Source: Bacillota bacterium (GTDB lineage Bacteria > Bacillota > SHA-98 > Ch115 > JABLXJ01). From it: 64,000 nt of DNA. Below are positions 41,120 through 54,751 of this stretch, piece by piece. The notes beneath the pieces are model-generated. The model ran no database searches, was not told the DNA's origin, and saw only the letters and a program-made list of their open reading frames with translations. Made by a program: the position numbers and the translations under genes. The first letter of the stretch is position 1. Every line of letters starts with the position of its first letter. The DNA is taken from assembly GCA_013178125.1 (NCBI GenBank), contig JABLXJ010000017.1, forward strand, positions 1-64,000, written 5' to 3'.

Positions 41120-44100
41120 TTGGATGATGATAAAGTGGTCTTTGAAGAAACATGTCCGGACAACGGTAATTGTCTTTCGGAGGTAGGCGCTGCAAACGCT
41201 GTGCCGTTCCGACAGTATCTCCAGCTGCAAGAAATGTCGCCGGGGGTATTTTTGCGCCTTGCTGTGCAATTAGCGGCAATTCTTTCCCGGTTGCACCGGG
41301 AAGGCGTCATCCTCGGTAACCTGAACCCGGATATCTTGTTAATCAGCCGGCGGGACGATAAGGTGTATTTGGTAGACTCTAGCCGCGCAACGAAACCGGA
41401 TACTGATCCCAAGGCCCTATTCTATCTTGCACCGGAACAGACCGGCCGTTTGAACCGGCCGGTAGACCTGCGGGCAGACCTGTTTTCCTTAGGTGTAATC
41501 TTTTATGAAATGTTGACGGGCCGGCTGCCTGTGGGGGGCAAAAACAGATTGGAATGGTTCCATAACTTGGTGGCCGGGAATATTAGACCTCCCCACCAGG
41601 TGGACAAGCAAATCCCGGCGGTTCTTTCCGACATCGTGATGAAATGCCTGGCCAGGGACCCGGACAACAGGTATCAAAGCGCTGAAGGTATAAAAAGGGA
41701 TTTATGGCGATGCCTTGAGGAATGGGAACAGCAGAAAAGCATCACCCCTTTTAAGATCGGTCAACACGACGTTCCCGCCGCATTTCATCTTTCAGCCGAG
41801 TTTTACGGCAGAGAACGGGAGCTGCGACTCCTGCAGGCGGCCTTGGAAAGGGTTGGCCGCGGCCCGGCTGAAATCGTTTTTGTTGCAGGTCAAGCGGGGA
41901 TCGGCAAGACAAGGCTGATCCAACAGTTTAGCAAGCAGGTTCAAAAAAAGCAGGGATTTTTCATCAGCGGGAAGTTCCAGTCTCTCAAGAGTAAGGCTCC
42001 CTATGGGCCTATAATTGAAGCCTTTGAGAAGTTATTTCAGTGGCTCATGAGCCGAAGCCAGGAAGAAGTAACCGCCTGGCAAGAGAGAATTCTCGCGCAA
42101 CTGGGCGCCAATGTTTACCTGGTCACGGCATTAATGCCGTACGTCGAGCGGCTGGTGGGCGAGCAGCCAAAAGTGGAGGCCATTTCAAGCGTGGAGGCCA
42201 GGGAGCGCCTCTTCTATGCCCTTTCTCAGTTGCTCCAGTTGTTCGCCCAAAAAGATGCGCCTTTGGTGCTTTTCCTCGACGACTTGCACTGGGCCGACCC
42301 CGGGTCTTTAAAGATTCTGGAATCAATTTTCCTGGAACACGAGGTCCGCCACCTTTTGCTGATAGGCACCTACCGGGAGGAAGAAGTGCCGTCAGGTCAT
42401 ATTTTAAGGGAAACTATCCAGGCAATGGAACGGGAGGCGAACAGGTTCAGGACAATCAGCTTGTCCCCCCTCGACCCCTGCGAAGTAGAGGAGTTTGTTG
42501 CAGCCAGTCTTTGCTGCAGCGGGGAAGAAGCAAGGCCACTCGCCGGGTTCGTTTATCAAAAGACCGGGGGTAATCCGCTTTTTGTAAGAGAATTGCTCCA
42601 AGTCATGTACAAAAAAGAGTTAATTTTACCCAGGCCCGGCGGCGGTGGCTGGCAGTGGGACCTGCGTCAAATAGAACAAACTGAAATTGCCGGCGACATA
42701 GTCAGTTTTCTGGTGGGGAAAATTACGCTGCTGCCCGACGAGAGCAAAAACCTCCTGCGATTCGCCGCCTGTATCGGGAATACGTTTGACACACCGTTGC
42801 TAGCACAAGTTTCCGGTCAACCCGCCACCATTATCGAAGAGCGTTTGAGTGATTGCATTAGGGAAGGGTTAATCCAGAAAGTCGATGGGCAAGTTTACAG
42901 TTTCGTTCACGACCGGGTTCACCAGGCGGCATATCTCTTAACCCCCGGTGAAGAAAAAAAGGCTATCCACTATCGCCTGGGCTGTTTAATGCTGGGGGGA
43001 GGGGAGGGATCCCCGGGAATAAAGCAAGAGTTCGACCCGCCAGCTTTCTTTACGGCAGTTAACCACTTAAACCTGGGGATAGAATTACTAATCAAAAACA
43101 ATGAAAGAATCCGCGGCGCAGAACTGAATCTCCTGGCGGGGAAAAGGGCCAAGCAGGCTTCAGCTTTCGCTACCGCACTAAAGTACCTCGAGACAGGACT
43201 GGGCCTGCTAGAAGAGAAGTGCTGGGAAACCCACTATCCTTTGACGTTTCAACTGCACCTTGAGCATCTGGAATGCCGGTACCTCTGCGGCTATTATGCT
43301 GAAGCAGAGGAACTCTACCAGGAGCTGTTGAAAAAAGCCCGGAGTAAGTTGGATAGAACGCAACTGCATTTAGTCGCCATTTTGTTCGCTACCAAGAACG
43401 ACTTTGATACCAGGGCTATCAACGTGGGGTTACAGGGGCTGCGGGAACTTGGACATGATCTACCGGCAAAACCCTCCACGCTTTACATTGTCCGGGAGTT
43501 GATCAAGGTCAAGAGGCTGATAAAAAAGATAGGGATTGACCGGATAGCGGAACTGCCGCCGGCGCGCGGTGAGGAAGTTCAGGCGGTTTTGAACCTACTG
43601 GTCGCCATCTCCCCGTGCGCCTATAACAATAACGAGGACCTATTATTTGCCATTGCCCTGAAAATCTGTGAACTTTCTTTACGGTACGGCCATTTTGCCC
43701 ATTCCGCCTCCGGTTATATGACCCTGGCCATGGTGAGTATTATCCGCCTGAAGGACTTTCAAACCGGGGTTCCCCTGGGAAAGATAGCCCTGGCCCTGGC
43801 GGAGCGGTACGGGACGCCGGACGAGAAATATATCATCAACTTTTTATACGGGACATTTTTCCTCCCCTGGCTGGAACACACCCAGCAGGGCGAATCGTAC
43901 CTGGAAAGGGCAAAGGAGGGCAGCCTGGTTCTCCGCGATTTCACCTATGCTGGATATGCCATGACCTTTTTGCTTGTTTCAAAGCACTTCCGGGGCGTGC
44001 CGCTGCAGGAACTGGCGGAGCAAATCCGGGAGTATTTCCAGTTCGCGTCGAAGGTAAAAGACCCCTATTTCCCCTGCTTCCTGACTATATACCGACAACT

Positions 44101-47053
44101 GGTCCTTAACCTGCAGGGTTTGACCCGGGGACCGGATAGTTTCAGTGACGATACTTTCGATGAAGAAGGATTCATTCGGGGAGATACAGGTTACCAAATC
44201 AGGGAAAAAGAACTCTTTGACTACTACCTTTGCAAGAACCAGGTTTACTACCTCCTGGGTAATTATGACCGGGCCCTGCCCCTGTTAAAGGAGGCCGAAC
44301 GGTTGACAAGGCTGTACTTTGGCGAAGTCTATCTTGCCGATCATGTATTCTATTATTGCCTGACTATTACAGCAGCGTATCACACCTTCTCGATCAGGAA
44401 AAAAACGGCGTTCTGGCTGTTACTGCTGAAAAAACACCGTCAAATGAAGCAGTGGGCCCGGCGCTGCCCGGCCAATTTCGAGCACAAACACTTGTTGATC
44501 GCAGCGGAGATGGCCCGCATACGCCGGCAAAACGAAAAGGCTGCCCTGCTCTATGATCAGGCTATCTGGTCGGCGAGAACCCACCGCTTTATCCAGAATG
44601 CCGCCATTGCCAGCGAGTGCGCAGCCAAATTCTACTTTTCCAGGGGATTAACCGACTTGGCCCAGAAATACATACGAGATGCCTATGAGGGCTATCGCAC
44701 CTGGGGCGCACAGATAAAAACGGAGCAGCTTCGATCCCAATACCCCTGGCTGGCAGGAGAAGAAGAGGGCCGGGCAGCGGTCTCCGGTTCGGAAGCACCG
44801 CCCGCTTTGATAAGCCCCGACCTGTCACAAATGGTGGACATGGAAGCCATTTTCCGGGCCGCCCAGCTTCTGTCCGGGGAAATCATTCTGGAAGACTTGT
44901 TGAAAAAGATGATGGAAACGGTTATGCAAGACGCCGGCGCCAGCCGGGGGGCCCTGCTCCTCCCGAAAGGCGAACACTTGTACATAGAAGCTCGAGTAGA
45001 AACCGGCCCAAATGAAATAAACATCGAAGTCCCGCAGTCCGTCCCCCTGGAAGAGTGCGACCTTTTACCGCGCTCGGTGGTCAATTACGTGGCCAGGACC
45101 GGCGAAACTGTAGTTCTCGACAACGCGGCCGAAACGGGTATGTTTGTGGATGACCCTTATGTGGCCAGCAGGCTCACGTCTTCGGTTCTTTGCCTGCCGA
45201 TTGTTGGAAAGGGGAAAACGGTTGGCGTCCTCTACCTGGAAAACAGCCTGTCCACAGGCGCCTTTACACCGGAGCGGGTGGAAATCTTGAGGCTGTTGTC
45301 GTCCCAGATGGCCATTTCTATCGAAAACGCCCGTTTGTATGCGGACCTGGAACAATCCCGGGACCGGTTGTCCAGGTGGAACCAGATGCTGGAACAAACA
45401 GTGGCTGAAAGAACCAGGGAACTGAAACAAATCAATGAGCAGCTCACGAGGGCAAGAGATGCCGCTGATGCGGCCAACCGCGCCAAAAGCGACTTCTTGG
45501 CGATCATGAGCCACGAAATACGTACCCCCATGCACGGCGTCATCGGCATGACCGAACTCCTGCTTCAAACACCCCTCGATCAAGAACAGCGGGAATACGC
45601 ATCCGTCATCCGGGAGTCCTCCGAACTATTGTTGACGGTTATTAATGATATCCTCGACTTCAGCAAGATTGAAGAAGGCAAGTTCAAATTAGAATCCGCA
45701 AACTTCTGCCTCCCGGCGGTGGGGAAAAACGTCCTGGCCGCCGTGGCGCCCAAAGCGCGCAGCAAGGGGATTGTTCTACGATCTTATCTCGCACCTGAAA
45801 TACCCGCCCTACTCCGCGGCGACCCGATGCGCCTGAGCCAGGTGCTCTTGAACTTAATGAGCAATGCCGTCAAGTTTACTGAACAGGGTGAAGTAACGCT
45901 CCGGGCTTTCCTGGAAAGAGAGGAACCGGATCATGTGACCGTTCGTTTTGAGGTGCAGGACACCGGCATAGGCATACCCTCACAGGCTCAGCAGTTTTTG
46001 TTCCAACCCTTCTACCAGGTCGATCTTGCGACGACCCGCAGGCACGGTGGCACCGGCCTGGGCCTCGCCATCTGCAAGCGTCTGGTGGAACTGATGCACG
46101 GGCAAATCGGCTTTGAAAGCGCCGCAGGGCGGGGGTCCACTTTCTGGTTTACCATACCCTTCCAGCGGGGCAGTGCAGAAGTTGAACCTGTTGACAGGTA
46201 TATTACCGCTGACGTGGCTTCAATGCGACTACAAGGGAAAGACAAATCTGGCACCGTCCTGGTGGTGGAGGATAATGTCATTAATCAGAAATTAATCGTC
46301 TCCCAATTGAAGAAGCTGGGCCTGTCCGCCGAAATCGCCTGCAACGGCAGGGAGGGGGTGGAGGCTTATTCCCGGGCTACTTATACCCTTGTCTTCATGG
46401 ATTGCCAGATGCCCGTGATGGACGGTTACGAAGCGGCCAGGGCAATCCGTAGCCTGGAGGCTACCAAGGGGCGAAGAACCCCCATAATTGCGACGACAGC
46501 CGGCGTCATGTCAGGGGAAGGGGAAAAGTGTTTAAGCGCCGGGATGGATGATTTCCTCAGCAAACCGATCAGGATGGAGGATCTGCAAAAGGTGCTGGCA
46601 CACTGGTTGCCTGATTCCGGTGTGACTATGGAAGAAGGCGCGCGGTGCATTAAAAGGATGGAAAGCCGGGTGGTGGATTCCTTCATATCAACATTTGTTG
46701 ATGCCACCAGGCGTAACGAATTCGGGGAAATGATAGGAGGGGATGGGGATTTTCTTATTGATCTAATAGAAACCTTTTTGCGGGATATGCCCGCAAAGCT
46801 GGCCTCACTCCGGGAGGCTCTCAAACAGAAGGATGCCGCAACTTTGCGCCTGCAGGCCCACGGGATGAAATCAAGCGGTTACTTGTTGGGCATCACCGGT
46901 TTTGCAGGCTTATGCCAAGAATTGGAGAGCACGGCCTCGGCCGGCGAGCTGGATGCGGCAGAAGAGCTCATGATGGTAATCGAGGCAAAGTACGGGCGGC
47001 TTGAGGAAGAGATGTTAGCCTTTCTTGAGGACGCTAAACAATGGCTCCATTGA
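41120..47053 (+). CDS. Giant hybrid protein: pseudokinase, ATPase, GAF, histidine kinase, receiver, HPt
   Basis: A 1977-residue signalling protein. Order: C-lobe of a Ser/Thr kinase (about 40-205), AAA-type ATPase with P-loop GQAGIGKTR (about 255), Asp box [15 protein letters not shown], a long helical-repeat region (about 600-1220), GAF (about 1240-1415), coiled coil, HisKA with [11 protein letters not shown] (His1465), HATPase ([27 protein letters not shown]), receiver (VVEDN; Asp1761 in [11 protein letters not shown]) and HPt (His1914 in AHGMKSSG). The kinase part lacks the N-lobe; the HRD-type motif is replaced by ILGNLNPD and DFG by VDSS, so it is a pseudokinase. TTG start with GGGGAG nine bases upstream. 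The protein probably relays phosphate within itself and then to the convergent response regulator. No membrane segment is seen. Confidence 0.9.
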
Positions 47054-47054
47054 T

Positions 47055-47759
47055 TTACTGATGGTGAAACTTGTATCCTATCCCCCTTACGGTGATGATA
47101 TAACGGGGTTTGGAGGGATCCAGCTCTATTTTCTTACGGAGCCTGTTAACGTGAACCATTACCGTCCGGTAGTCAGCATTGTACTTAAACTGCCATACCG
47201 ATTCTAGCAACTGGTGATAAGAAAATACCCGGTTGGGGTTTTGCGCCAGCAGGGCGAGAAGCTCGAACTCTTTATTAGTAAGGGCGACCGGCGAGCCGCC
47301 TACTGAAACCGTGCGGCTGGAGAGATCTATTTCCAGGCCGGGATAAGCAAGTACTTCTTTTTGCCCTGGGGGTTGACAGACTATGTGTTGCAGGAGACCC
47401 CGGCGCAAGTTCGCCTTTACCCGGGCAATCAATTCTTTTGGGTTGAAGGGTTTGACTATGTAGTCGTCTCCACCGACGCCCAGGCCCAGCACGATATCTG
47501 AAGAGTCTCTCTTGGATGTTAGAAATATAATCGGGACGTTATTTCCCTTACGTATTTCACGGCAAACCTCGATGCCGTCAAGGTCAGGCAAAAGTATGTC
47601 CAGGATAATCAAGTCCGGCTCATGGGCACGGACCAGCTCAAAGACGCTGCCACCGTCCCCGGCGGCGATCACCTGAAAACCCTCTCGCACCAGGTGATGC
47701 TCAACCACCTTCCTTACCACAGCTTCATCGTCAACCACTAAAATCTTTTCTCCAGCCAT
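47055..47759 (-). CDS. OmpR/PhoB-family response regulator
   Basis: A 234-residue regulator. Receiver domain: VVDDEAVVRKVVEHHL, phospho-acceptor Asp in LIILDILLPDLDG, and VKPFNPKEL; C-terminal winged helix with FELLALLAQNPNRVFS, VMVHVNRLRKKIE and VRGIGYKF. ATG at 47759 with AGGGA six bases upstream. Its 3' end abuts that of the giant hybrid kinase with one base between the stops. The kinase ends in an HPt domain, the usual donor to a separate receiver, so the two are likely partners. Confidence 0.92.
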   Translation of the reverse strand: MAGEKILVVDDEAVVRKVVEHHLVREGFQVIAAGDGGSVFELVRAHEPDLIILDILLPDLDGIEVCREIRKGNNVPIIFLTSKRDSSDIVLGLGVGGDDYIVKPFNPKELIARVKANLRRGLLQHIVCQPPGQKEVLAYPGLEIDLSSRTVSVGGSPVALTNKEFELLALLAQNPNRVFSYHQLLESVWQFKYNADYRTVMVHVNRLRKKIELDPSKPRYIITVRGIGYKFHHQ

Positions 47760-48098
47760 GAGCATTCCCTGCCCGATTATGCTTTTATGATTGTGTTTTT
47801 ATAATCATATTCTCCTTAAAAGAGACATCTCCTCTTTCCCCGGTTCGCTAGTGACAAAGCACACGAAGGAGGGCCTTCTGGACCAGGGATATACAGGTCT
47901 TCCAAAATTACGGAAATTTGAGAAAAACGTTAGTGAAAGTTTAAGTCTGTTTAAAAGAGGTTAATTTGAAGTTGTTATAATCAATACTGAGTGGTGTAGA
48001 TCCATGTCACTTCAGGATCCTGTGTGCGTCAGGAGAAGACAACGCATCGGTCCCACTGTACAAGCTTGTAAGTCCTATTAGGATTGGGAGGTTAAGGT
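47760..48098. other. Upstream region of the actin-bactofilin cluster
   Basis: About 340 bases. A candidate extended -10 promoter TGTTATAAT ends at 47981, about 115 bases before the actin-like gene. The ribosome site GGGAGG precedes its ATG. No iteron array of the parC type was found. Confidence 0.45.
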
Positions 48099-49169
48099 AT
48101 GACAAAATTAGTCGGTTTGGATGTAGGTTATGGCTTTGTAAAAGCTACTGATGGAGAGTCCGGCTATTCTTTCCCCAGCGTGGTGGGTGAAGGCCATAAC
48201 AAGCCCACGTTTAGTACAAGAACTAGCCATACGCTCGATGATCTAAAAATCGGAATGGGGCAAAAGTTGTATTTCGTCGGCAAAGCCGCCATAAGACACT
48301 CGAAGTTTGTTTACCGCGACCTTTCCTACACGCGCGCCACGGGAGAGGATTTTGAAATTCTCTTTTACAGCGCCTTGAGTTTGTTCTGTCACAATCGCAC
48401 TAATGAATTTAAGGTAGTGACAGGCCTTCCGGTGGAGAGAATACATTTGGCCAAGGATCTCCAAACGCGGGTTAGGGGCGAGAGGACTATCAAGACGCTT
48501 CGCGGAGGGGAAATCCAGGATACCAGGGTTTATGTTTCCGAGGTAGAAATAGTGCCCCAGCCACTGGGAACTTACTGGTCTCAATTTCTCAACCTGGAAG
48601 GAGAAGAGGCAGCGGTTCCCCTGGAGGGCCTGACCGGGATCATTGACATTGGCTTCCGGACGACCGATCTGGTCGCAATAGAAGACGGCGAATACATATC
48701 GGAAAAAAGCAAATCGCTGTCGGTAGGTTTGGCCACAGCCTATAGCGATGTCGGCTCAAATCTGGCTACGGAATATGGGTTGGAAAAAGAGAGTTACGCC
48801 CTTGACGGCGCTATCATTAAGCGCAAAATTAATGTTTCGGGGCAAACGCTTGACATTACCGATATTGTCGCGAATGCCTTCGAGAAGCTGGCTACAAATA
48901 TTCTGGTGGAGATTAACTCCCAGTGGAGGTGTCCCGATTTCGATAATCTGATTCTAACCGGCGGCGGCGGGCAGGCCGTTAGTTCTTACCTGCTGCCGCA
49001 TCTGTCACAAGCAAAACTGGCCGCCGACCCCATCACCGCCAACTGCCGCGGCTATCTAGCTTGGGGCAACCGGTTGTGGAAATCCCCGGGCACCGGCGAA
49101 GAAGCTCAAGCTCAAGCCTGGGCTCAAGCTCAAGCTCAGGCTCAGGCTCAGGCCGAACAAGATTCTTAG
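48099..49169 (+). CDS. Actin-like ATPase of the ParM/Alp type
   Basis: A 356-residue protein of the actin/Hsp70 fold, closest in appearance to ParM/StbA and archaeal Ta0583-like actins. Phosphate-1 motif GLDVGYGFVKATDG near the N-terminus; phosphate-2 LTGIIDIGFRTTDLV (about 180-195); adenosine motif LILTGGGGQAV (about 290). It probably forms ATP-dependent filaments. The last 25 residues are an unusual Ala-Gln repeat coded by tandem GCTCAA/GCTCAG hexamers (about 49090-49152), a likely flexible tail. It is the first gene of a plus-strand run with two bactofilins and an M23 peptidase, which points to cell shape or envelope work rather than plasmid partition. Confidence 0.85.
   Translation: MTKLVGLDVGYGFVKATDGESGYSFPSVVGEGHNKPTFSTRTSHTLDDLKIGMGQKLYFVGKAAIRHSKFVYRDLSYTRATGEDFEILFYSALSLFCHNRTNEFKVVTGLPVERIHLAKDLQTRVRGERTIKTLRGGEIQDTRVYVSEVEIVPQPLGTYWSQFLNLEGEEAAVPLEGLTGIIDIGFRTTDLVAIEDGEYISEKSKSLSVGLATAYSDVGSNLATEYGLEKESYALDGAIIKRKINVSGQTLDITDIVANAFEKLATNILVEINSQWRCPDFDNLILTGGGGQAVSSYLLPHLSQAKLAADPITANCRGYLAWGNRLWKSPGTGEEAQAQAWAQAQAQAQAQAEQDS
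49090..49152 (+). repeat. Hexanucleotide repeat in the actin-like gene
   Basis: Tandem GCTCAA/GCTCAG units encode the Ala-Gln tail. Such repeats can change copy number by slippage and so alter tail length. Confidence 0.75.
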
Positions 49170-49181
49170 GGTGATTCCTTG

Positions 49182-49769
49182 ATGAGGGTAGCGAATTTAT
49201 TGACCAACATTTTCAATGCAGGAACCTCGTGCGAAAATCACGGTTTAATTGAAATCAACGGTGTCGTTAACGGCATGATTCGTAAGGGAAATAGCGTGCT
49301 GATTAATCCTTCCGGCCGTTTTTACGGCAAAATCGAGGCCAAGAACCTTGAGATTGCCGGCGTGGTACAGGGCGACGTGGAGGCCGAAACCCTGGTGATT
49401 CATTCTTCCGGGCAGCTGTATTACGACAGACTAAACTGCAAGTACCTGTCCGTTAAAGATGGAGGTGCGCTGATTAACAGGGGCGGGAGCGAAAGCGAGA
49501 AAGCAAGCTATGCAGAGGGGGAGGAGTATCCGGGCAATACCACTCCAACTGGCGATGTCAGGGAGACTGACGATGGGAACCTTTACGAAAACTCGGCGGA
49601 CTCCAACAGTGAACTGTTAGATGATGCGCCCGGACCCAACGGGCAGCACGGGCAGAACGACGATATTCAAGAAGCAATACCGCTGCCAGAGAAGACACGC
49701 GCTTTGCAGGTAGACGAGCAGAGGCCGCTTCCCAATTGCAGACAGCCCCACTTTTACATTAGTTACTGA
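49182..49769 (+). CDS. Bactofilin family protein, long form
   Basis: A 195-residue polymer-forming bactofilin. Residues about 15-100 show the right-handed beta-helix repeat pattern with glycine and hydrophobic spacing: ENHGLIEINGVVNGMIRKGN, LEIAGVVQGDVEAETLVIHS. The C-terminal 90 residues are acidic, disordered and unlike other bactofilins, and may be a docking tail. The ATG at 49182 has AGGGTG upstream and lies 12 bases behind the actin-like gene. Confidence 0.85.
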   Translation: MRVANLLTNIFNAGTSCENHGLIEINGVVNGMIRKGNSVLINPSGRFYGKIEAKNLEIAGVVQGDVEAETLVIHSSGQLYYDRLNCKYLSVKDGGALINRGGSESEKASYAEGEEYPGNTTPTGDVRETDDGNLYENSADSNSELLDDAPGPNGQHGQNDDIQEAIPLPEKTRALQVDEQRPLPNCRQPHFYISY

Positions 49770-49812
49770 GTGTAGGTTCCTTGATTTGCGCCAGTTTACC
49801 AGCACGTTCCAC

Positions 49813-49862
49813 GACTTACGGTGTTGCGCTCCGGGGACGGCGCGCCGCAAGCACCGTAAGTC
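49813..49862. other. Strong hairpin between bactofilin and peptidase genes
   Basis: GACTTACGGTG-TTGCG pairs with CGCAA-G-CACCGTAAGTC, with one bulged base and a GC-rich loop. Only A-runs follow. It could stop transcription partially, stabilise the mRNA or be a REP-like element. The gap of about 200 bases also holds repeated CGAACTTAC words near 49887. Confidence 0.6.
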
Positions 49863-49977
49863 CTGAAAAAGTGGCGATAGTCTTCGAACTTACACTCGAA
49901 CTTACGCTTAGAGTTATTAGCAATAACTTCGAAATTGAACACAGCAACTGCATTTTAGGGGTCTAGGCGATGACTAA

Positions 49978-50976
49978 ATGAAAAAAGGCAGACCTAAGCA
50001 TAAGGTACACTTGACACTGCTCATTATCCCTAATTATTACGGTAGGGTGACCAATTTAAGAATTCCCGGCTGGGTTTTGAAAATGGCGGTGGGGACTGCG
50101 ATTGCCATACTGGCTGTAAGTACACATTTGTTCGTTTCCAACCTGCAACTACGCCCTAAGGCTAAAAACTATGAAAAACTCAAAGCTGGCAATCGGCGGC
50201 AACAACAGGAGATCATGCGGCTCAAACAAGAAGCGGAGATTATTCTGGATAAAATACAGGCTCTGGAGGAACTGGACAGGCAAGTGCGAGAATTGGTGGA
50301 CCTTCCACCTAGAAAAGGCACAAGCTTTCTAGATGAGGGAGCGGGTTCGGTAGGGGGCGGTGACATCCCCGGCGGTATTCCCGGCGCGGTGGATAGTCCA
50401 CCGCGAAATCCCCAGGGGGAAGAGGCCCCGAGTTCAGCCAGAGCCCTTGATTCTAGCGTAGATGAATGGTCAAAAGTATTGCGAGAGGTTGCCACGGACT
50501 TTGACGGGTTGAATTCATTGCTGGAACAACAGGTGGCCAATCTGGAAAGGTTGAAAACGGTCGTTATTTCCCGCCGCCAATATCTGGCAGCCCTTCCCAC
50601 GAGGTGGCCTGTACGGGGTATCATCACTTCCAGGTTTGGCTATCGTAAGTCGCCTTTTGGCGGAGGAAAAGAGTTTCATGATGGGCTGGATATTGCCGCC
50701 AACATGAGTACCCCAATCGTTGCGGCAGGTAGTGGCCGGATTATATTTACTGGCTGGCTTGCCGGTTACGGCCGTACCGTAATCCTCGATCATGGGTACG
50801 GTTACCGGACCCAATACTCCCACGCTTCTTCCATTCTGGTTAAGAAGGGCCAAAGGGTCAAAAAAGGCGACGCTATTGCCAGAGTAGGTTCCACCGGTAG
50901 GAGTACGGGTCCCCACCTGCATTTTATGGTTTCAGTAAACGGAAAGCTGGTTGATCCGCTTGAGGTGCTACCGTAG
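49978..50976 (+). CDS. Membrane-anchored M23-family peptidoglycan endopeptidase
   Basis: A 332-residue protein. Cytoplasmic basic start, one membrane helix (about 35-58: VLKMAVGTAIAILAVSTHLF), a coiled coil (about 60-110), a linker, and a C-terminal LytM/M23 domain (about 205-330) with the zinc motifs FHDGLDIA (HxxxD) and HLHF (HxH). M23 enzymes cut peptide cross-links of peptidoglycan. Bactofilin-M23 pairs control cell shape in other bacteria (for example CcmA with Csd1 in Helicobacter). A bactofilin gene stands on each side here. Confidence 0.9.
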   Translation: MKKGRPKHKVHLTLLIIPNYYGRVTNLRIPGWVLKMAVGTAIAILAVSTHLFVSNLQLRPKAKNYEKLKAGNRRQQQEIMRLKQEAEIILDKIQALEELDRQVRELVDLPPRKGTSFLDEGAGSVGGGDIPGGIPGAVDSPPRNPQGEEAPSSARALDSSVDEWSKVLREVATDFDGLNSLLEQQVANLERLKTVVISRRQYLAALPTRWPVRGIITSRFGYRKSPFGGGKEFHDGLDIAANMSTPIVAAGSGRIIFTGWLAGYGRTVILDHGYGYRTQYSHASSILVKKGQRVKKGDAIARVGSTGRSTGPHLHFMVSVNGKLVDPLEVLP

Positions 50977-51005
50977 AGTTTGGTAGAGGAAGGGGTTTAA
51001 GTGGT

Positions 51006-51308
51006 ATGCGTGGCAAAGAAAAAACGACTCCGGCCGACAGAATCGACATTTTGATTGCTCCGGAAACACATTTCCGGGGCAAGATTGTGTCCCGTGGCAC
51101 CCTGCGGATTGACGGCCAGGTAGAGGGGGAAATCTCAACCGAGGGAGATGTCATGATCGGCGAAAGCGGGCGGGTCTTGGCTCAGATTCAGGCCAGGAAC
51201 ATTCTCGTTGCCGGTAAGGTGAAAGGAAACCTTATACCTGCCGGCCGCATCGAAATAGCTGCTACCGCCAGTCTAGAGGGGAATATTCAGGTGGAACTAG
51301 CTCAATAG
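51006..51308 (+). CDS. Bactofilin family protein, short form
   Basis: A canonical bactofilin of 100 residues: ILIAPETHFRGKIVSRGTLR, then IDGQVEGEISTEGDVMIG, VLAQIQARNILVAGKVKGN and SLEGNIQVELAQ. It forms non-polar beta-helix filaments. It is the last gene of the morphogenesis cluster; its stop codon directly touches dispersed repeat R1. Confidence 0.92.
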   Translation: MRGKEKTTPADRIDILIAPETHFRGKIVSRGTLRIDGQVEGEISTEGDVMIGESGRVLAQIQARNILVAGKVKGNLIPAGRIEIAATASLEGNIQVELAQ

Positions 51309-51422: not shown

Positions 51423-53366
51423 GACGTACATTTCGCACCCCTCATGGGCGCGCGGTGATATTTTTTGAGGTCGCATGTAAAGATGAAACATTTTAGTGAC
51501 AATTATACACTTATAGGGTTATTTGGTATATATTTACTTGTACTTTCCCCTGCTTTTATGTACAATGGAGGCGGGGGTGTTTCCTATGGTTCCATCCTTG
51601 AAGATATTTCACGCTGGGCCCGCTCCTCTTATCTCGGCATTGTTCGATGCCCTTGGGATCAGTAAGACTCTGGATTCTGTCCTTGCCTGGGACGAGACTC
51701 AGTGTAAGCTGCCTCCATCTATACGTATTAAGGCTCTTGTGATAAACATCCTTGCCGGCAAAACGCCACTCTACAACGTTGAACGGTTCTTCAAGTTCCA
51801 GGATACGGAGAACCTCCTGGGCCAGGGCGTAACTTGTGAAGACCTAAATGATGATTGTCTTGCCAGGGCTTTGGATATGCTTGTTGAAGCTAACCCCAAG
51901 AAGGTTACCTCAACAATCATGCTAACCGCTCTTGCAATAGAGGACATCGTGCTGAACCGGATTCACGCCGACACAACCTCCATCTCGGTCTATGGCGAAT
52001 ACCAGCACGATGAGGAAGAAGAGGACTCTAGCCCCTTTATCCGCCTTCTCAGGGGACATAGCAAAGATCACCGTCCAGACCTTCTCCAGCTCAAGGTGGG
52101 GCTTGGAGTAACCCAGGATGGTATCCCTGTAATCGGCGAGCCTCTAAGTGGGAATGTGGACGACAAGACATGGAACAACGACTTCATCAAGACGATGGCC
52201 GCCCACTTGGACAAGGTTGACCTTACCAAGGTAATTTACGTGGCTGACTCAAGTGTGGTGACAAAAGATAACCTGGAGGAGATCGCCAAGCAGAGGCTTC
52301 TTGTGGTATCGCGATTCCCTGCGACCTTTACCCTCGAAGGCGAGCTTAAGGAACTGGCGTGGGAGAAGAACGAATGGATTGAGGTTGGAAAGCTGTGTAG
52401 CGCAAGGGATGGAGCGGCTTACAGAAAGGCGGCGTCATACAAGGTTCAAGCATTCACGAGGGAGCTCTATGGGCGCCTTTACAACTTTGTAGTAGTCTAT
52501 TCAACAGCATTAGACAAGAGAAAGGTCAAAGCCCTGGATAGACGCATTGAAGAGCTCCATAAGGATCTAACCACAGCAGCCAAAGAGATACAGGCGAAGG
52601 AGTTTGCGTGTAAACCAGATGCCAGTGTGGCTTTAGAAGAGTTTCTGGCCAAGCATGCTAATGACTTCTACCCAATGTCAGCTGAAGTTATCGAAGAAAC
52701 CCGGCCGAAGAAGCGTGCCAAAAAGGGACGGCCCAAGAAAGACGAAGTTGTGGAACTGGAAACGGTCTATAGGATTCGGCCAGTCATCGGGGCACTCAGC
52801 GAGTCTGCGGTAAAGCGGGCAAGGGAACGCAATAACTGCTTTGTGCTGATAACGAATGATTTGCTGATGGAGCCTCCCGATGTGTTACGGGAGTATAAGG
52901 AGCAGATAGGGGTAGAGACGTCGTTCAAGTTCCTGAAGGACCCGACATATCTTGATGCGATTTATCTGAAGAAGGAGAGCAGGATAGAGGCGCTGGCATA
53001 TGTTCTACTCATGGCGCTCTTGATACACCGGATATTGCAACGAAGGGTACGGAAGGCCTTAGAAACTGAGGGTAGTCACATAGTGGTAGCTGGGGGAGTG
53101 AAGACTACGGCACCCACCGGGAACCGGATACTGGAGCTCCTGGCTCCGTATCAGGTATTATGTGCCAAGGAGGGAGATCGGGAGTACCGGGTAATTCAAG
53201 AGATCCCGAACGAAGAGCCGCTGGAAAGGATACTAAGGCTTGCAGGTTTTACTCAGGACATATACGTAGTCGTCCGTCCGAGCCCGTATCAGCGTGAGTG
53301 AAGAGATAAAAAATGATTCCGGGGAAAAACAAGAAACATCAGGGGTAAGGGTGCGAAATGTAGGTC
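51423..53366 (+). mobile_element. IS1634-type insertion sequence
   Basis: Inverted ends GAC-G-TACATTTCGCACCC (51423-51440) and GGGTGCGAAATGTA-G-GTC (53349-53366) enclose a single transposase gene. The element is about 1.94 kb and looks complete. Target duplications are not obvious by eye. Confidence 0.8.
51586..53301 (+). CDS. IS1634-family transposase
   Basis: A DDE transposase of about 571 residues. Catalytic acids are likely in RIHADTTSISVYG (first Asp), VIYVADSSVVTKDNL (second Asp) and KEQIGVETSFKFLKDP (Glu). A charged KKRAKKGRPKKDE segment lies between the second Asp and the Glu. The ATG at 51586 has GGGGGTG six bases upstream; ATG 51565 is an alternative. The frame is uninterrupted, so the enzyme may be active. 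Confidence 0.9.
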   Translation: MVPSLKIFHAGPAPLISALFDALGISKTLDSVLAWDETQCKLPPSIRIKALVINILAGKTPLYNVERFFKFQDTENLLGQGVTCEDLNDDCLARALDMLVEANPKKVTSTIMLTALAIEDIVLNRIHADTTSISVYGEYQHDEEEEDSSPFIRLLRGHSKDHRPDLLQLKVGLGVTQDGIPVIGEPLSGNVDDKTWNNDFIKTMAAHLDKVDLTKVIYVADSSVVTKDNLEEIAKQRLLVVSRFPATFTLEGELKELAWEKNEWIEVGKLCSARDGAAYRKAASYKVQAFTRELYGRLYNFVVVYSTALDKRKVKALDRRIEELHKDLTTAAKEIQAKEFACKPDASVALEEFLAKHANDFYPMSAEVIEETRPKKRAKKGRPKKDEVVELETVYRIRPVIGALSESAVKRARERNNCFVLITNDLLMEPPDVLREYKEQIGVETSFKFLKDPTYLDAIYLKKESRIEALAYVLLMALLIHRILQRRVRKALETEGSHIVVAGGVKTTAPTGNRILELLAPYQVLCAKEGDREYRVIQEIPNEEPLERILRLAGFTQDIYVVVRPSPYQRE

Positions 53367-53966: not shown

Positions 53967-54551
53967 CTATATCGTATAAGACGAGATCCCCAGAAGAGTC
54001 AGGCCATTATTTACAATAGCGAGAAGCATAATCCCTAGGAAAGTCCCAATAACGGTTCCGCTACCGCCGAAGACGCTCGCTCCCCCAAGGAAGACCGCGG
54101 CAATGACGTTCAGCTCCTGACCGACTATTTTGAGGGTCATAATTACGACTACATACTCAACGACTTGGGCTATAGCAGTAAAAGAAACATCGGGAGTACC
54201 ACCCAGGATGAGCACAAAGAGCACCCCGACCGCCATGATACCAACGACCGAAAAACTCTTCATCAAATCGAAGATATTCTCCGCGCCAAGGAAACGAGGG
54301 TTAAAGATGGTTATTACCATACCTAAGATGATAATAACCAATGCAAGATAAAACTCGGTTTGTTTAAGTAATCTATTCATATCGGGTTGTAGATTGCCGG
54401 AAATAATCTTTATGAGTGTGGATTTACCTGAGCCGTTTTCCCCAGCTAGGCAGTGGATTTCGCTTTTTCCAATGGAAAAATCGATGCCTTTTAGGGCCTG
54501 AACACCGCCAAAGCTCTTATGGATACCAGTTAAGCGCAAAAAGTCAGCCAT
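53967..54551 (-). pseudogene. Deletion-fused ABC ATPase-permease chimera
   Basis: A continuous 194-codon frame joins parts of two genes. Residues 1-57 are the start of an RbsA/LsrA-type ATPase with Walker A GENGSGKS; at about residue 58 the start of an RbsC/LsrC-type permease ([17 protein letters not shown]) follows directly. A second join at about residue 141 (VVIMTLK to IVGQELN) removes the middle of the permease, which then ends after GISSYTI, short of its normal end. All joins keep the frame. Neither ATPase nor transporter function is possible from this product. The intact equivalent lies at 57224-60201. Confidence 0.8.
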
Positions 54552-54605
54552 TGCCTCAAACCATCTCTCATTTCTTAGCGAAACATGAGGGTATTTTTTA
54601 AAATC

Positions 54606-54654
54606 GTGTGGTTTTCCATACTCCAGGGTATCTCCAGGGTATGGAAAACCACAC
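54606..54654 (-). terminator. Perfect 16-bp hairpin before the chimera
   Basis: GTGTGGTTTTCCATAC and GTATGGAAAACCACAC pair perfectly around 17 bases with a repeated CCAGGGTAT. On the minus strand it is followed by GATTTTAAAAAA. It lies about 100 bases behind the stop of the truncated binding-protein gene. Confidence 0.6.
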
Positions 54655-54680
54655 ACTAAATGAACTAACTTGAAGGCCAA

Positions 54681-54751
54681 CCTAAAAATAACCCAATTGC
54701 TTCCAGGAATATTTTCACTTTCTGCGGCGCCGCAGCGCGGCATGAGGGTCT
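54681..54751. repeat. Dispersed repeat R2, copy B
   Basis: It holds AAAAATAACCCAATTGCTTC, TTTTCACTTTCT, the palindrome CTGCGGCGCCGCAG and CATGAGGGTCT. It ends two bases from the stop of the truncated binding-protein gene. Confidence 0.8.

Follow-up and report, generated by a model that had tools for sequence, protein, structure and literature searches.

Bactofilins place M23 enzymes in Hyphomonas and Rhodospirillum (BacA-LmdC; PMC10945521), and a ParM-type actin has turned into a shape protein in Nostoc punctiforme (FcmB/FcmC; PMC12645912). We were interested whether a gene cluster of a Bacillota bacterium that combines a ParM-like actin, bactofilins and an M23 peptidase represents one cytoskeletal system. 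The cluster lies in a window of 64,000 nucleotides from contig JABLXJ010000017.1 (65,181 bp; genome of 3.48 Mb) and consists of four open reading frames (ORFs), all confirmed on the + strand: a ParM/Alp-type actin of 356 amino acids (48099-49169), bactofilin 1 (49179-49769, with the TTG start as listed, or an ATG at 49182), an LmdC-like M23 peptidase (49978-50976) and bactofilin 2 (51006-51308). An earlier sequence-only reading of the window had named the same four products, the peptidase as membrane-anchored, and Pfam matches and coordinates agree with it. The analysis described here points to a chromosomal actin-bactofilin module, in which a ParM-derived actin is probably tethered by a bactofilin tail to a membrane scaffold that places wall hydrolases.

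The actin matched the Pfam families ALP_N (2.4e-35) and MreB-like_C (2.7e-18) above cut-off as well as the PHROG family 'partition protein' (5e-56), and the best fold match of its AlphaFold2 model was to ParM structures (ParM 6ixw, E 1e-21), with Dh-cParM1 and CorM also matching. The phosphate-1, phosphate-2 and adenosine motifs for nucleotide binding were all kept in the motif alignment, and the clade of this actin is defined by the motif PQP[LV]GT[YF]W. Its closest solved relative is pCBH ParM, followed by Dh-cParM1 and CorM (4e-8), and the match to the NCBIfam FcmB model (3.6e-10, 39 bits) stayed below the curated cut-off of 300 bits. With pCBH ParM as a nearer relative than CorM, the window actin looks like an exaptation separate from FcmB/CorM. 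No Pfam match to MreB_Mbl was obtained for this protein, and a true MreB is encoded elsewhere in the genome; as MreB was found in 21/21 genomes tested, the actin is an addition, and its interpretation as an MreB replacement was rejected. The Ala-Gln-rich C-terminus (49098-49166, + strand), pointed out in the sequence-only reading, is present but private to the window genome, the copy from the same genus ending in ...QVQAESDS; a conserved Ala-Gln tail was therefore rejected.

A genome scan led to 32 loci, 29 of them with close relatives of the actin. Counted as distinct loci, 31 of the 33 from Bacillota have a bactofilin adjoining the actin (L053 is cut off by the contig end). In Halorhodospira (Gammaproteobacteria) the actin was detected in seven of nine species, and all seven carriers have the order M23-bactofilin-actin, while the two species without actin (G690 and G691) gave no bactofilin match either. 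Since the genomes hold only one to four bactofilin genes each, the recurrence of this adjacency in both groups is far above chance. The pairing with a chromosomal ParM-like actin, previously noted as unusual, is thus conserved, and the literature searched (open-access papers only) contained no report of an actin gene paired with a bactofilin gene. What is conserved throughout the phylum is the actin together with one bactofilin, the latter sitting immediately 3' of the actin in the slot held by ParR in ParM-ParR pairs, and no ParR-like gene adjoins the actins of the bactofilin-linked clade.

In an actin tree of 62 rows, on which FcmB and CorM were not placed, all bactofilin-linked actins together with two losses formed one clade with a support of 100/100 and a long stem. 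This clade is nested among solo chromosomal ParM-like actins, which are themselves nested among ParM-ParR types. The sister actins (L069-L082) stand alone or beside unrelated housekeeping genes with neither ParR nor bactofilin, two of them (L081 and L082) being followed by an overlapping ORF of 143-147 amino acids, and more distant actins have small ParR-like neighbours. Mapping the partner labels onto the tree required no more than the minimum of changes; the clade has a single origin, and the switch from a DNA-binding adaptor to a bactofilin as partner of a ParM-type actin happened once. In the bactofilin tree, all 30 partner bactofilins were found to the same side of one branch (support 97/82, from few columns). 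As the Halorhodospira bactofilins group outside this set, with canonical M23-type ones, it is tentatively suggested from short alignments that the actin paired anew with a bactofilin after its transfer to Halorhodospira.

Bactofilin 1 scored above the PF04519 cut-off (2.8e-13), and Foldseek with its AlphaFold2 model led to the Thermus bactofilin 6ria as top match (probability 1.00, but E 0.029). A short amphipathic-looking N-terminus is followed by the beta-helix core and a disordered acidic linker. The acidic tail described in the sequence-only reading is thus present as this linker, but the notable part is the conserved last five residues, FYISY (49752-49766, + strand), which follow the motif F-x-x-[ST]-[YF]-COOH and represent a candidate actin-binding peptide. 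Partner bactofilins share the beta-helix core, a variable and almost unconserved linker and F-x-x-[ST/V]-[YF/V/I] at the C-terminal end, the motif being found in 28/28 main-clade partners and in 0/52 other bactofilins. When unique bactofilin C-termini were compared as run, 27 of 37 actin-adjacent sequences had the motif compared to one of 53 others (Fisher p 1.2e-13, ignoring relatedness), and this single match counted as non-adjacent (L054) does lie next to an actin ORF, which is broken into fragments. The ten actin-adjacent bactofilins without the motif are a basal subclade (the seven from Halorhodospira, L047, L049 and L068), those of Halorhodospira having their own conserved WGRR-type end, (F/T)WGR(R/H). 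Among approximately 970 other ORF C-termini, one unrelated ORF matched the motif.

Actin and bactofilin 1 share a frame in the window, and the read-through with TAG as Q was folded by AlphaFold2 as a tethered pair, from an alignment of in-frame read-through rows and actin-only rows. Residues 551-556 of this fusion had a predicted local distance difference test score (pLDDT) of ~77 with a predicted strand at 551-554, and the linker was disordered (24-30). When bactofilin 1 was folded alone, the last five residues reached a pLDDT of 65 and formed no strand (linker 45-58). The predicted ordering of the tail in the actin fusion suggests docking on the actin.

The M23 peptidase (PF01551, 5.7e-36; motifs HxxxD and HxH intact) starts with a hairpin-like cytoplasmic N-terminal stretch, followed by a transmembrane or hydrophobic segment, a coiled coil (both read from the sequence) and the M23 domain. 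This order, the zinc ligands and the adjoining bactofilin gene are the features of LmdC-like peptidases. The N-terminal stretch can be aligned with the canonical M23 copy of the genome, part of a second, canonical M23-bactofilin pair (L025, 9543-11249) near a ParB-like ORF. Bactofilin 2 also scored above the PF04519 cut-off (3.3e-23), is short and canonical in type, lacks the tail motif and was placed outside the partner bactofilins in the tree. Conservation of the four-gene order over Bacillota, proposed as a test in the sequence-only reading, was not found outside close kin: the full order was observed in the window genome, G001 and G003, and in G125, where only 65 amino acids of bactofilin 2 are left. 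G126 has actin-bactofilin-M23, and G036 has two actin-bactofilin copies, one of them with M23 and kinase. Between the genes for bactofilin 1 and M23 lies a hairpin repeat resembling a miniature inverted-repeat transposable element (49775-49940, no strand assigned), which matches 49 places in the genome; the four genes may therefore not share one transcript. A related copy of the repeat was found upstream of the actin in G001. Directly 3' of bactofilin 2 lies a DUF4277/DDE transposase of an insertion sequence (51523-53301), and the flank beyond it is not conserved in G001 and G003. Further downstream, a sugar ATP-binding cassette transporter ORF (53967-54743) is apparently fused or decayed, with the start of an ATPase joined to the end of a permease, next to intact rbs-like genes.

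Several of these observations weigh against a tail-coupled module that places hydrolases. In the sister genomes L035 and L048 the partner bactofilin is missing but the actin is retained, so that this actin is able to survive on its own or together with a different partner; in addition, the basal subclade lacks the FxxSY tail. The tail exceeds the linker in pLDDT in the bactofilin-alone control as well, and the fusion was modelled as a single tethered chain, for which neither coordinates nor predicted aligned error were given, its alignment differing in depth from that of the control; the actin-bactofilin structure prediction that had been proposed thus gave the tail strand and left the docking site unseen. 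Finally, the M23 gene stands beside the actin-bactofilin pair in only six Bacillota loci besides Halorhodospira, and in the window the repeat separates it from the pair. These last two points would also be expected if actin and bactofilin formed a general intracellular scaffold, placing for example a kinase or another enzyme, with wall shaping incidental and the M23 and bactofilin 2 genes as neighbours by chance or local history. Most Bacillota loci are indeed actin and bactofilin without M23, and homologues of the giant hybrid kinase encoded upstream in the window (41120-47053, + strand; kinase-like/AAA/TPR/GAF/HisKA/HATPase/REC/Hpt) precede the actin in ten loci, more than those Bacillota loci with M23. 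The M23-bactofilin-actin trio of Halorhodospira, however, has another gene order and a bactofilin grouping with canonical M23-type ones, and bactofilin and M23 form a module already established for 226 species (PMC10945521), which makes the general scaffold unlikely, if still the best placed of the alternatives. The two-polymer scaffold for a wall hydrolase, put forward in the sequence-only reading, holds as the best reading, with the narrower M23 distribution given above.

Less likely again is a module that still segregates DNA, in which the actin would move loci of the chromosome or of a plasmid, with the bactofilin as adaptor in place of ParR. It would fit the ParM descent of the actin, the ParB-like ORF beside the canonical M23-bactofilin pair of the genome, and a similar arrangement in Myxococcus, where bactofilins together with PadC organise ParB/parS and, according to PMC12448750, the tail of BacP holds a binding site for the Par-related PadC. 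GTTA-like words in the gap upstream of the actin could also be read as remnant parC iterons. These words, at a spacing of ~11 bp and ending in TATAAT, make up a non-coding footprint (47926-47981, + strand), of which the 11-bp periodicity and the repeat statistics are weak, and no strong iterons were found upstream in most loci. The footprint is conserved in six genomes, all with a response-regulator gene upstream, which argues against segregation and is consistent with a likely regulated promoter; a strict reading as parC or as Pho box was not adopted, the repeat statistics being too weak to decide. In the window the regulator is of OmpR type and divergent from the actin (47055-47765, - strand), and it is kept beside the actin in G001, G003, G125, G126 and G151. 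In the window lineage, expression is probably controlled by the hybrid kinase and the regulator. The sequence-only reading had considered that such actins might always travel with plasmid partition partners, which is not what was found: besides the missing ParR-like neighbour, the clade is chromosomal, no relative of at least 60% identity was detected among 72,556 plasmid and 50,697 phage records (best ~29% or less among the matches listed), and the actin alone gave no relative among viral contigs. A plasmid-partition relic was therefore rejected as the main explanation, and the presence of an M23 peptidase beside the module in two phyla speaks for a link to the wall. Least probable is a function in sporulation, for example at the engulfing membrane or in forespore shape, which the sequence-only reading had raised and which is compatible with Spo0A in all 20 Bacillota genomes tested and with gerA/gerAC genes at 36-40 kb of the window, but is not required and not the common denominator of the carriers, as this actin also accompanies bactofilin and M23 in Halorhodospira, the two genomes of this genus tested lack Spo0A, and the footprint ends in a vegetative-looking -10.

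The most economical account is therefore a ParM-derived actin coupled to a scaffold of bactofilin, to which an LmdC-like hydrolase is added in some lineages. A plasmid-segregating ParM-type actin would have lost ParR and parC, passed through a stage as a solo gene on the chromosome and been tied to a bactofilin afterwards. Bactofilin 1 would self-polymerise into a membrane-attached, nucleotide-independent scaffold, and its flexible linker would present the C-terminal FxxSY peptide, which may dock as a beta strand onto the actin and may recruit, cap or nucleate actin filaments at the membrane, the task of ParR for ParM but without DNA. The actin would contribute ATP-driven dynamics. The M23 peptidase would be recruited via its cytoplasmic N-terminus, in the same way as BacA recruits LmdC, and would cut peptidoglycan at the scaffold and thereby set local cell-wall growth and shape.

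Four groups of known systems come closest. FcmB/FcmC of Nostoc punctiforme and CorM/CorR of Anabaena (PDB 9rmi, released 2026) are likewise built on chromosomal ParM-descended actins, and FcmB, encoded beside its partner gene, has a role in cell shape, coexists with MreB and needs the partner for membrane placement; FcmC, however, is annotated as ParR-like, whereas in the window this position is taken by a bactofilin that has a peptide motif at its C-terminus. BacA-LmdC resembles the window in a bactofilin adjoining an M23 peptidase with short cytoplasmic N-terminus, transmembrane segment, coiled coil and M23 domain, but no actin partner is reported there, whereas here an actin clade is tied to a bactofilin, in Bacillota to a dedicated paralogue. 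Type II partition systems (ParM-ParR-parC of pCBH, R1, pSK41 and SPO1 gp27.9) share the actin family and fold, the partner gene immediately downstream and a partner C-terminus as proposed actin contact (ParR tail-ParM structure 4a62); the window system differs in being chromosomal, in its bactofilin partner and in the lack of an adjoining ParR-like gene and, in most loci, of strong iterons. In BacNOP-PadC of Myxococcus xanthus a bactofilin C-terminal tail also binds a Par-related protein, but with KKKVVVKK as motif and a partner that is not an actin.

With about even confidence, the bactofilin-linked clade can thus be regarded as a distinct two-polymer cytoskeleton, in which a dynamic ParM-derived actin and static bactofilin filaments would be coupled via a new actin-binding peptide, F-x-x-S-Y/F, and steer a wall hydrolase, with a single origin in Bacillota and a transfer to Halorhodospira, where the actin would have joined the canonical M23-bactofilin pair of spiral or rod-shaped phototrophs. 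The exaptation of plasmid-partition actins for shape machinery has been shown only recently, in cyanobacteria, and the system described here would add an independent example, in which the partner is of another type. If true, it would directly link two cytoskeletons, of actin and of bactofilin, on which research is otherwise separate, and the conserved five-residue tail offers a sharp handle, as one truncation should uncouple both polymers.

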